From Marinobacter qingdaonensis (GTDB lineage: Bacteria > Pseudomonadota > Gammaproteobacteria > Pseudomonadales > Oleiphilaceae): a DNA stretch of 64,000 nucleotides. Within the stretch, counting starts at the first letter, position 1. Each line of letters begins with the position of its first letter. Made by a program: the position numbers and the translations under genes. The stretch covers positions 682,001 through 746,000 of the forward strand of contig NZ_JAYDCJ010000003.1 in NCBI RefSeq assembly GCF_034555935.1. Reading direction: 5' to 3'. Shown piece after piece: positions 30,891-34,932 of this stretch. Under the pieces are notes generated by a model that had not been told where the DNA came from, ran no database searches, and worked only from the letters and a program-made list of their open reading frames with translations.

Positions 30891-33688
30891 AGGTCGGAAG
30901 GCCAGCGGTGGTTGGTCTCGGTGGTCTGCTGCTGGCGGCCGGCCAGCCATTGCGCCAGTTGCTCCACGGTCAGGGGCTTGGCGTAGTAGTAACCCTGCCC
31001 GTAATCGCAGCCCAGTGACTGCAGGTAGCGCTCGTCCCGTTCCGTTTCTATGCCCTCGGCCACCACCTGCATGCCCAGCTCGTGGGCCATCTTGATGGTG
31101 GAGCGCACGATGGCCTGGTTGTCCCGGTGGGTGTCGATGTTGGTCACGAACGACTTGTCGATCTTCAGGATCGAGGCGTCCAGATCCTTCAGGTAGGCCA
31201 GCGAGGAGTAGCCGGTGCCGAAGTCGTCGATGGCCAGGCTGCTGCCGCTCTGGGCCAGGCTGCTGGCCAGTTCCACCGCCAGCTCCCGGGAGCTCATCAG
31301 CGCGGTCTCGGTGATCTCGAACTCGAAATGGAAATAGCCGGTGGAGGAGGCCAGCAGCGCCTGCAGCTCGGTGATGAAGTGCCGGTCCTGCATCAGCCGG
31401 GCCGACACGTTGATGGCCATGTGGCGCGGCAGGCCACGGGCCTGCCAGTCCCGTTCCTGGGCGAGAATGGTCTGGACCACCCAGCGGGTCAGGGGGGCAA
31501 TCTGCCGGGAGTTTTCCGCCACCTCAATCAGGGTCATCACCGGCACCACCGGACCCCGGTCCGAGGGCCAGCGCAGCAGTGCCTCACAGCCAAAGGCCCC
31601 CATGGTGGCCAGGTCAATCTTGGGCTGGTACAGCAGGTTGAAGGCGTCGCTCTCGATGTTGGCGCGTATGGCCGGCACCAGTTGCAGGCGCTGACCGGCC
31701 GCGAGCTGGTCGGCGGTGCTGTAGCAGTGCATGGCGATCTGACGGGCCTTGGCCCGACGCAGGGCATCTTCGGCGCAGCGCCACAGGGCCTTGGCCGAGC
31801 GGAACTCCGGGCTGGCGGTGCCGATTGGCTCCGGTACGGCGGTGGCCGCATTGCCGATACCGATGGTGCAGAACACCTGCAGGGTGATGTCGCCGTCGGT
31901 GCCGTGCGGACCCTGGGGCAGGGGCTGCTCGACCGCCGCCATGATGGCCTCGGCCAGGTCCTGGCCGCCGTCGGCAAACCCCAGCCCCTGCAGCCAGACC
32001 GCAAAACTGTCGCCGCCAACCCGGGCCACCCAGCCGGCTGGATGCCGGTCGCTGACTGTGTGGGCGATGCGGGCGGCGATGGTTTTCAGCACATGGTCGC
32101 CGGTCGCCTGGCCATAGGTGTCGTTCACCTCGTGGAAGTAGTCCAGGTTCACCGCCAACAGGCTGCCGGTTTGCCCCTGGCGCAAGTCCTGGTTGATGCG
32201 GGAGAAAAGCGCGGGCCAGTTCAGCAGCCCGGTCAGTAGATCGTGGGTGGCCTGGTACTCCAGCTCCCGCTCGCGCTCGACCCGGTCGGTCAGATCCCGC
32301 AGCACAATGGTGTACAGCGGCTCGGCCGACAGGTCCACGGTGCTGATGATGGCCTCCACCGGCACCTCTCGGTGGTCGCTGGCCAGCAACACGGTGTCGA
32401 ACGGCTTGCCCGACAGGTTGGCCAGTTCCGAGTCGATGTCCGGCAGCCAGTCCCGCACGTGGCTGCCGATGAGCTGCGCGGAGGAGGAGTGGCTCAAGTG
32501 GAGCATGGCTGGATTGGCCTGAGTGATCTGGCCCTGTTGGTTCAGGCACAGGATGCAGTCGTTGGCGGTGGCGATGATCCGGTCGTGGATGGCCTGGTGG
32601 TCCCGCAGGGTGATCTGCAGCCACAAGTGTTCGAGAGTGACGGCGTCGAGCCGGGCAATGTTGGCGGCGACGTATACCAAAACCAGGGCCAGAGTTGGGG
32701 AAACAATGTTCAGGATCAGGTGCAGGTTCTGAAATGCGAACACCGCCGCCAGCGGAGCGGCAATCAAAGCCAGCGCAAGGACGGCCAGCCCCTGAGTCCA
32801 GGTCAGCCGGGGAAACACCAGGGCCGCCAGTAGCCAGGCCAGCAGTAGTAACGTGCCCTCGGCTGCGGCCGTCAGTCGGTACAGGCCGCCCCGGTTCAGG
32901 GTTTCGGTGCCCAGTGCCTGCAGCACCACCCCGGGCAGCGCCCGATGCACCGGCACCGCCAGGGTGTCGCCCAGCTCGATGGCGGTGGCACCGAGGAAGA
33001 TTTTCTTGTCCCGTAGCCGTTCGGGGTCGATCCGCCCCGCGATCAAATCGGAGAAGCTGACGTAATCGAAGGAGCTAGGGGAAATGCTGAAGTCGATCCA
33101 GGTGGCGGTGTGGGCGCCAGAGGTCATGGCAATCCAGGCGCCCGGGAAGAGCTGGCCTTGCCAGTTGAAGCCGGTTCCCAGTCGGCGCACCAGGCCATCG
33201 GTGTCCGGGTGCAGGTTCACCGACACCAGCTGGGCGTGTTCGGCGAATTCCGGCAGTGGTTGTCGCAGCATCAGGGTGTTATCCACCGACGAGGTCTGCT
33301 GGACAAACGCCGGCAGGTAGACCGGCAGGGATACCGCCGCCAGCGCCTGGGCCAGGGCTTGGTCCTGATCTGGCCGGGAGCGGGCGCTGAAGTCGACATC
33401 GACCATGATTGAGCGCACGTCGGCCGCTTCCAGGTGCTGCAATGCTTGGGCAAACAGCTCTCGCGGCCAGGGCCACAGACCAACATCGGCGATGCTGGCG
33501 GAGTCAATCTCGACAATGACCATGTCCGTTGCCACCGGGGCCGCCAGCAGCGCGAACCACTGATCCTGGATCTGGCGGTCTAGGTCCCGAAGCGCATCCG
33601 TGAACCACAGCACCACCAGCACCATCCCGGCCAGCGCGGCCGCCAGTATGGCATTGCGTTTGCGGCTAAAGTTAGTGGCACTGGTCAT
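30872..33688 (-). CDS. CHASE2-PAS-GGDEF-EAL protein
   Basis: 938-residue membrane signalling protein. An N-terminal helix (about 12-30) is followed by a periplasmic CHASE2 domain (about 40-280; VIVEIDSASIADVGLWPWPRE is diagnostic), three membrane helices (about 285-345), a PAS domain (about 365-480), and then GGDEF-like and EAL domains. The GGDEF signature reads GGDSF, so cyclase activity is doubtful. The EAL domain keeps EALLRW, INVSARL, EITETA, IDDFGTGYSSLAYL, LKIDKSF, AEGIE and GQGYYY, so phosphodiesterase activity is likely. It begins 28 bp after the FecR-repeat gene and is probably in the same transcript. CHASE2 ligands are unknown. Confidence 0.9.
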   Translation of the reverse strand: MTSATNFSRKRNAILAAALAGMVLVVLWFTDALRDLDRQIQDQWFALLAAPVATDMVIVEIDSASIADVGLWPWPRELFAQALQHLEAADVRSIMVDVDFSARSRPDQDQALAQALAAVSLPVYLPAFVQQTSSVDNTLMLRQPLPEFAEHAQLVSVNLHPDTDGLVRRLGTGFNWQGQLFPGAWIAMTSGAHTATWIDFSISPSSFDYVSFSDLIAGRIDPERLRDKKIFLGATAIELGDTLAVPVHRALPGVVLQALGTETLNRGGLYRLTAAAEGTLLLLAWLLAALVFPRLTWTQGLAVLALALIAAPLAAVFAFQNLHLILNIVSPTLALVLVYVAANIARLDAVTLEHLWLQITLRDHQAIHDRIIATANDCILCLNQQGQITQANPAMLHLSHSSSAQLIGSHVRDWLPDIDSELANLSGKPFDTVLLASDHREVPVEAIISTVDLSAEPLYTIVLRDLTDRVERERELEYQATHDLLTGLLNWPALFSRINQDLRQGQTGSLLAVNLDYFHEVNDTYGQATGDHVLKTIAARIAHTVSDRHPAGWVARVGGDSFAVWLQGLGFADGGQDLAEAIMAAVEQPLPQGPHGTDGDITLQVFCTIGIGNAATAVPEPIGTASPEFRSAKALWRCAEDALRRAKARQIAMHCYSTADQLAAGQRLQLVPAIRANIESDAFNLLYQPKIDLATMGAFGCEALLRWPSDRGPVVPVMTLIEVAENSRQIAPLTRWVVQTILAQERDWQARGLPRHMAINVSARLMQDRHFITELQALLASSTGYFHFEFEITETALMSSRELAVELASSLAQSGSSLAIDDFGTGYSSLAYLKDLDASILKIDKSFVTNIDTHRDNQAIVRSTIKMAHELGMQVVAEGIETERDERYLQSLGCDYGQGYYYAKPLTVEQLAQWLAGRQQQTTETNHRWPSDLQPFRR

Positions 33689-33716
33689 GAGACAGGCATT
33701 ACCGCGGCATCCTAGA

Positions 33717-34796
33717 TCAATTCAGCAGGTTGTTGACGGAACCGCCAATGCCGCCGACGGCCTCGCCCAGGTCATCACCCAGATCGCCGCCCAAGTCGTC
33801 ATCCAGGTCGAGATCCAAGTCGTCATCCAGGTCGAGATCCAAGTCCAGGCCCAGGTCGCCTCCGATCTCCGCGCCTATCTCGGCCCCGATGTCGGAGCCG
33901 ATATCGGCAACCAGATCCAGGCCGAGATCGAGGCCCAGGTCACCGCCCAGCATGGAGCCCACATCAGTGCCCAGTTCGTTACCCAGGTCGGCCACCAGAT
34001 CCGCCCCCAGGTCGGAGGCCAGATCCGCGCTGGCGTCGATGCCCAACCCGCCGAGGCCCGCGGTCAGGCCCAGATCCGCCTGCAGACCGAGGCTGCTGGC
34101 AACCTGAGCCACCAACTGCGTGTCGCCCTGTTCGGTCTGGCCAAACCGATAATCAACGCGGGCGATGGCCAGGGCCTGTTGCTGCTCGGCGGCAGGCAGG
34201 GCATCCGGGGTCTGCAGCAGGGAACTGATTTCGGCCTGCAGTGCGGACACACTGGCGATGTCGCCGGGATTCAGGGTCCGGGTGTTGCCGGTTTCGCGGT
34301 CCACCACCTCGAGCCGGCCCTCCTTCAGGGTCACGAACGAGGCCGAGTCGGTAGTCACGATGGTGAACTGGGTGCCCTTGACGGTGGACACCAGGAACGG
34401 GGTTTCTACCTGGAAGGTGTCGGGCTGGCGTTCGACGTCGTAAAACACCGTGCCAATCCATTGCTTGACCCGGGACACCAGGCCGTCGGCCTGTTCGTCC
34501 TCGTTGCTGAGCCGGATGTGGGTGTCGGCGCTGACCTCGAAGAAGGTGCCGGCCTGGCGGACCTGGGCGCTGGTGTCTGGACCGGTGCGGATTTCCACCG
34601 GAATCGGCAGGCTGTCGCCGGCGGTCACGGCTTGCCAAGGGCCTTCACTGTCGTGGCGGTATTCGACCGTACCCTGGGCAATGTCTACGGTGACGGGCTC
34701 GGCGGACGCTCCGGCTGAGGCCAGGGCCAGTACCAGCGTGAGCAAAAGGCAGACAAGGAACGGGACCGGCGCGGTCTGGGGGGTGGATTGGTTCAT
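33717..34796 (-). CDS. Exported FecR-domain protein with 23 tandem x-D-L-G tetrapeptides
   Basis: 359-residue protein. Signal peptide (LVCLLLTLVLALASAGASA, residues 1-32), then a FecR-type beta domain (about 35-185) with the characteristic FLVSTVKGTQFTIV and LNPGDIASV segments, and a Gln/Ala-rich linker (about 188-235). Residues 257-348 are 23 uninterrupted tetrapeptides of form x-[DE]-[LIV]-[G/D], almost without charge-neutral breaks, giving a very acidic tail. There is no anti-sigma or FecA-type receptor nearby, so the domain is probably not a FecR signal transducer. GGGAG precedes ATG 34796. CHASE2 protein downstream, TpsB divergent upstream. Function unknown; surface or periplasmic structural role possible. 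Confidence 0.75.
   Translation of the reverse strand: MNQSTPQTAPVPFLVCLLLTLVLALASAGASAEPVTVDIAQGTVEYRHDSEGPWQAVTAGDSLPIPVEIRTGPDTSAQVRQAGTFFEVSADTHIRLSNEDEQADGLVSRVKQWIGTVFYDVERQPDTFQVETPFLVSTVKGTQFTIVTTDSASFVTLKEGRLEVVDRETGNTRTLNPGDIASVSALQAEISSLLQTPDALPAAEQQQALAIARVDYRFGQTEQGDTQLVAQVASSLGLQADLGLTAGLGGLGIDASADLASDLGADLVADLGNELGTDVGSMLGGDLGLDLGLDLVADIGSDIGAEIGAEIGGDLGLDLDLDLDDDLDLDLDDDLGGDLGDDLGEAVGGIGGSVNNLLN
33753..34028 (-). repeat. 12-bp period coding tandem repeat (23 units)
   Basis: 276 bp encoding residues 257-348 of the FecR-domain protein as 23 back-to-back 12-bp units. The protein pattern is x-acid-aliphatic-G/D with only one acidic-position loss before the last unit (SMLG). Codon choices drift in the older units and are nearly identical near the 3' end. 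Confidence 0.9.
33791..33838 (-). repeat. Exact 24-bp tandem duplication within the repeat tract
   Basis: Two identical 24-bp copies (33791-33814 and 33815-33838), with a further partial copy starting at 33839. It lies in the part coding for LDLD/DDLD units and looks like a recent expansion by slippage or unequal recombination. Confidence 0.9.
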
Positions 34797-34932
34797 GCGC
34801 GTTCTCCCTGAACGACGACTGATCACTGCGTAATTCGGCCAGCCAACTGTCCCTGCGTCTATTCGACCAACAGATTGCTCTCGCACCGACAAAACTGGTC
34901 TACCTTTCCAGAGTAGCTCAGTCGCGGAGAAT

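Follow-up and report, generated by a model that had tools for sequence, protein, structure and literature searches.

What are 23 four-residue units, most of them an acidic residue followed by an aliphatic one, doing near the end of an exported bacterial protein? The question is raised by a FecR-domain protein of Marinobacter qingdaonensis, whose gene lies in the 64,000-nucleotide stretch analyzed here (contig NZ_JAYDCJ010000003.1, positions 682,001 to 746,000 of the forward strand; hereafter, the window). The tetrad array turns out to be just one form of a rapidly changing tail of low complexity. More important is the module to which that tail belongs: a FecR gene, a gene for a CHASE2-domain enzyme whose output is probably cyclic di-GMP (c-di-GMP) breakdown, and a divergent gene for a ShlB-type barrel. 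The three genes stay together across many genera and the FecR fold is conserved; the sequence of the long tail seen in the orthologues examined is exchanged between clades, and its tetrad version is under purifying selection.

The array is genuine. A first-pass annotation had placed it on the minus strand at residues 257–348 and split it without a gap into 23 tetrads, all of which is correct; it had also called the x-D-L-G repeats perfect, which was too strong, exact x-D-L-G accounting for 8/23 units and the 23 comprising 17 distinct tetrads. What is strict is the register. Position 3 is Leu, Ile or Val in every unit, position 2 is Asp or Glu in 21 (the exceptions being SMLG at 281 and EAVG at 345) and position 4 is Gly or Asp in 20. 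None of 100,000 composition-preserving shuffles gave 23 aliphatic or 21 acidic-plus-aliphatic units in one register, the maxima reached being 17 and 11. The tail has a net charge of −32, with 32% Leu, Ile, Val, Met or Phe (LIVMF) and 19% Gly, and its autocorrelation is 0.57 at lag 4 vs −0.38 at lag 5; 11 residues follow the array. RTX and pentapeptide-repeat proteins are likewise made of Asp/Gly-rich or A-D-L-rich tandem units, and the window tail differs from both in its period of four: it has neither the calcium-binding nonapeptides of the former nor the period of five of the latter, and, searched alone against Pfam, it matched no family and no repeat. The period that the annotation had set apart from these families holds up, is kept at the level of amino acids and recurs in distant FecR proteins.

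Could the array be noise left by replication slippage? We consider this very improbable indeed. The Asp-rich end does hold short, near-perfect 24-base duplications, with codon identity of 32/45 at a lag of eight residues, and homologue tails vary in length. Against this, 22 of the 23 twelve-base units differ, and residues identical at lag 4 share a codon in 23 of 51 cases, no higher than after permutation (mean 24.7). The ratio of nonsynonymous to synonymous substitution rates (dN/dS), compared in three gene pairs, is below 1 in every tail: 0.20 in the tetrad tails of L032 and L033 (0.13 in the rest of the protein), 0.31 in the mixed tails of L035 and L037 (0.12) and 0.50 between the window and L031 (0.23), a pair in which dS exceeds 1 and is nearly saturated and the tail alignment is uncertain. 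With its codons drifted apart, and dN/dS at 0.20 in a comparable tetrad tail, the array is not slippage noise; the tail is a selected part of the protein, held more loosely than the FecR domain. The annotation had named tail-less or randomly varying homologues as signs of slippage. No tail-less full-length orthologue was found (P0019 ends after the FecR region, but sits on an 849-base contig); tail type does switch wholesale between clades, yet not in the manner of slippage noise.

If the array is selected, does it fold? A narrow β-solenoid or β-roll can be imagined, with four-residue rungs, x and Leu pointing inward and Asp and Gly outward, its order perhaps dependent on extracellular calcium. 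The strict register speaks for such a true repetitive fold, as do the dN/dS of 0.20 in one tetrad tail, a 12-residue super-period in several relatives, the reuse of three tetrads plus three residues in distant FecR proteins and a hydropathy that does not place the tail on the disordered side. AlphaFold2 gave no confident fold for either tail tried. In the window protein the predicted local distance difference test score (pLDDT) is about 30 in the tail and below 50 over residues 186–359; in P0017, the most regular homologue tried, it is 29–44 over residues 231–443, from an alignment of only two rows. This counts against a repetitive fold, although AlphaFold2 reportedly over-predicts β-solenoids for perfect repeats (PMC11795689). 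Orthologues in the module, moreover, exchange the tetrads for unrelated low-complexity sequence. The solenoid or calcium-binding roll that the annotation had proposed loses ground on both counts: we regard a repetitive fold as fairly unlikely, and a calcium-dependent one is conceivable but unproven.

The exchange of tails is evident among the protein's relatives. A protein search returned 32 of them. Seven have organism names: six belong to Marinobacter, the other to an unplaced member of the Pseudomonadota. Aliphatic residues show lag-4 autocorrelations of 0.31–0.61 in the tails of the window protein and 22 of P0001–P0023 (P0019 being too short), and in several relatives the lag-12 value rises above the lag-4 value, up to 0.79. 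The FecR-region tree, of 32 rows, falls into two groups, the branch between them fully supported. In the window's group, 20 of 21 rows have Gly- and Asp-rich tails with 30–37% LIVMF; the exception, L032b, is a second copy in one genome and has a GGDDDL-like tail. The other group, of 11 rows, holds one DLG-type tail (L045), three mixed acidic tails (L035, L037 and P0022, of which L037 and P0022 do not differ over the region used for the tree) and seven hydrophilic tails of NGHG, GGTPPGH, poly-Asp or GNGG character, with 8–10% LIVMF and no lag-4 signal. Net charge is negative throughout the 32 rows, from −17 to −71. In 15 homologous loci from other genera, tails are variously NG-rich, EPEP, Pro-Ala-rich or mixed, and two of the 15 run off their contigs. 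The tails of L048, L049 and L050 have NGHG or GGTPPGH runs and then nine or ten C-terminal Asp residues, possibly a metal-binding end.

Tetrads also occur much farther afield. A profile that itself includes such tails selected 619 FecR proteins, of which 120 were listed; 32 of these were dropped (motif not found, or tail shorter than 50 residues) and 88 scored. Some come from Woeseiaceae and Steroidobacteraceae, and they show D-x-G tetrads, often in sets of three tetrads and three further residues. Successive [DE]xG motifs are spaced by 4 in 781 and by 7 in 373 of 2,362 cases, and the periodic signal has z >3 in 86/88 tails, in a set, that is, chosen with a tail-containing profile. In P0043, P0083, P0086, P0118 and their relatives the repeat is 15 residues long (three D-x-G tetrads and three residues), and the C terminus is often GLLGGLLGR-like. 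Either the tetrad is old and has been lost repeatedly or it has been found repeatedly.

What has stayed constant is the company the gene keeps. The three genes lie side by side in the window, as they do in 21/21 Marinobacter locus records (15 further genomes, six loci having been fetched twice), so that all 16 examined Marinobacter genomes carrying the FecR-tail gene have the module. Across 37 genomes of the genus, the ShlB-like gene is present in six, and these are exactly the ones with a FecR-tail match below 1e-40. The ShlB-like protein is conserved in 10 aligned module members, and its divergent arrangement with the FecR gene is maintained in related loci. Flanking genes resemble those of the window in three of nine loci (L031–L033) and are different in six. 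Beyond the genus, in a sample of the phylum, the FecR profile matched 18/397 other genomes at 1e-12; we followed loci in 15 of the 18, from 12 genera, leaving out G556, G639 and G820. A divergent ShlB gene lies beside the FecR gene in 13 of these 15 loci, and a CHASE2 gene adjoins it in 13, the contigs of L122 and L125 ending inside the FecR gene. Window coordinates are given in Table 1.

Table 1. Features of the three-gene module, with positions counted from the first base of the window
Feature	Position	Strand	Basis
CHASE2-PAS-GGDEF-EAL protein, 938 amino acids	30872..33688	-	Pfam; 28 bases downstream of FecR gene
FecR-domain exported protein, 359 amino acids	33717..34796	-	open frame; PF04773 above gathering score
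Low-complexity tail, residues 206-359 as measured	33720..34181	-	composition; pLDDT
23 tetrads x-[D/E]-[L/I/V]-G, residues 257-348	33753..34028	-	
FecR domain (PF04773), residues 68-162	34311..34595	-	score above gathering cut-off
Signal-peptide-like N terminus, residues 1-32	34701..34796	-	sequence reading; AlphaFold2 helix 13-27
Intergenic region, 136 bases, between divergent FecR and ShlB-like genes	34797..34932	.	coordinates
ShlB/FhaC-type barrel protein with POTRA domain, 510 amino acids	34933..36465	+	PF03865, PF08479, PF07244; divergent to FecR gene

The start of the FecR gene was taken as the Met at 34796, near which close homologues also begin; the open frame can be extended upstream to 435 residues from 35024. 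Two irregular loci deserve mention. In L032:10860-13406 (the same place as L042), an additional FecR copy, whose acidic tail is short and GGDDDL-like, lies beside a ShlB-like copy broken into two frames, and in L047 (8852-11652) the CHASE2-GGDEF-EAL gene is split over two frames, which could be sequencing error or real decay.

Which way does the CHASE2 enzyme work? In the window protein GGDSF replaces GGDEF, and both EALLRW and DDFGTG are present. A set of 16 distinct Marinobacter CHASE2 proteins has EALLRW throughout; in 15 of them GGDSF or GGDGF stands in place of GGDEF, with no such motif found in L031; and the DDFGTG pattern was missed in five, the truncated L047 protein among them. The output in Marinobacter is likely to be breakdown of c-di-GMP. 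Outside the genus, an EAL domain was found in 12 of 13 CHASE2 proteins (six by Pfam, six by BLAST). L126:3615-9318 is a module in which a CHASE2 histidine kinase replaces the EAL enzyme.

And what does the barrel carry? It has the features of a two-partner secretion (TPS) transporter, a ShlB-type barrel with a POTRA_2 domain (PF03865, PF08479), and differs from such systems in that no TPS-domain cargo accompanies it: PF05860 was found in 0/10 Marinobacter module genomes, eight of them >90% complete and <5% contaminated, and in 17/56 genomes of the class in the same search, which served as a positive control. It was also found in 7/13 outside-genus module genomes at E 0.001 (six over the cut-off), in none of them beside the module. 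The FecR-tail protein is a natural candidate for the barrel's partner. It might even be the pore's cargo, secreted whole, its sticky or acidic tail serving as external matrix or adhesin and the CHASE2 enzyme merely co-regulated. A low-complexity tail would suit that role, and so would a barrel kept adjacent in Marinobacter genomes where PF05860 is missing. The protein, however, has no TPS domain, FecR being all that Pfam shows, and the fold of its FecR domain is that of a periplasmic signaling domain; we think export as cargo unlikely.

The account we lean toward, at a little under even chances for the whole picture, is a three-gene relay in the cell envelope. The ShlB/TpsB-like barrel would sit in the outer membrane, the CHASE2 protein in the inner membrane and the exported FecR protein between them. 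The FecR domain would stay in the periplasm and contact the CHASE2 sensor domain, by analogy with iron signaling, in which domains of the FecR type pass on the state of a barrel in the outer membrane. The tail would be a sequence-tolerant spacer or passenger extending into or through the barrel, and the state of barrel and tail would set CHASE2 activity; in this lineage, a long, extended, soluble chain would take the form of the x-D-L-G tetrad. Joint action of the three genes we hold to be much likelier than the part given to the tail. Several observations weigh against the relay. No ShlB-like gene was found beside the FecR gene in L127 and L129. Acidity is not conserved, 9/15 outside-genus tails being net positive. 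In those outside-genus genomes that encode PF05860 proteins, the barrel could have another cargo. Hydropathy and charge do not put the window tail and 19 other Marinobacter tails, of 32, on the disordered side, and a selected, strong period-4 pattern suggests something beyond a mere spacer in the lineages with tetrads.

L127 and L129, as FecR–CHASE2 pairs without a ShlB-like neighbor, would sit comfortably with a protein that is wholly periplasmic, its tail a spacer or ion-binding segment unlinked to the barrel pore; FecR-type domains, by their fold match, act in that compartment. Such an arrangement leaves unexplained both the divergent ShlB-like gene that has been kept and its co-occurrence with the FecR gene across the 37 genomes, and we find it quite improbable. 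We give similarly low credence to a c-di-GMP-linked surface display. There, the FecR domain would be a periplasmic plug, related in its fold to the anchoring domains of adhesins, holding the tail threaded through the ShlB-type pore, and CHASE2 would read the display and switch the EAL phosphodiesterase. Since nothing more than a long, soluble chain that can be threaded would be required, the tail's sequence would be nearly free, and CHASE2 domains would have their long-missing partners in FecR-domain proteins.

How does the proposed relay compare with known systems? The window protein belongs to the FecR family by PF04773, scored over the curated cut-off, and by its signaling-domain fold. It is no FecR/PupR anti-sigma factor: it has only PF04773 and an export-like start, with CHASE2-GGDEF-EAL and ShlB-like neighbors. 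Compared with Fec/Pup cell-surface signaling, then, the anti-sigma architecture is missing by Pfam and a ShlB-type barrel replaces the TonB-dependent receptor. From LapA/LapD adhesin retention the module differs in its ShlB-type barrel, CHASE2 sensor and short tail. FecR–CHASE2 neighborhoods are already in print (PMC5192318, PMC9239204). The BiofilmReg operon of Burkholderia contaminans reportedly comprises a LysM-FecR protein, a CHASE2-PAS histidine kinase and a response regulator, with an effect on biofilm (PMC5192318). The window pair is of this kind, an exported FecR-protein gene directly preceding a CHASE2-PAS sensor gene; it lacks LysM and has a low-complexity tail, an EAL enzyme and a divergent ShlB-like barrel. 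In the Campylobacterota, a CHASE2 adenylate cyclase is described in a cluster that also includes a FecR-domain envelope protein and genes for a TPR-domain protein and a phosphodiesterase (PMC9239204). The likeness is again a CHASE2 enzyme of nucleotide second messengers with a FecR-domain envelope protein; the messenger is cyclic AMP there and c-di-GMP here, and the accessible text of that paper mentions no ShlB-type barrel. For the combination of FecR and CHASE2 with such a barrel, we found no paper in the open-access literature.

Why should the module matter? PMC5192318 describes what is recognized by CHASE2 domains as not known; a unit of FecR protein, ShlB-type barrel and CHASE2 enzyme across genera opens CHASE2 recognition to direct testing, the FecR protein being a candidate partner. 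The unit also provides a role for ShlB-type barrels in genomes where TPS cargo was not found. The tail, finally, is a natural case in which place and low complexity are kept and sequence is exchanged, one branch holding a selected four-residue rhythm.

Two minor observations concern the window and its genome. A plus-strand open frame of 372 amino acids (window 33600-34718) runs antisense to the repeat and mirrors the tetrads; it is probably a by-product of codon use. The window's genome also has a second FecR–CHASE2 pair (L132:6216-10450; G000:C1, about 59.2-63.4 kb), in which the gene for a LysM-FecR protein (545 amino acids) overlaps the start of that for a CHASE2-PAS-HATPase protein (876 amino acids), arranged as in the published BiofilmReg operon.
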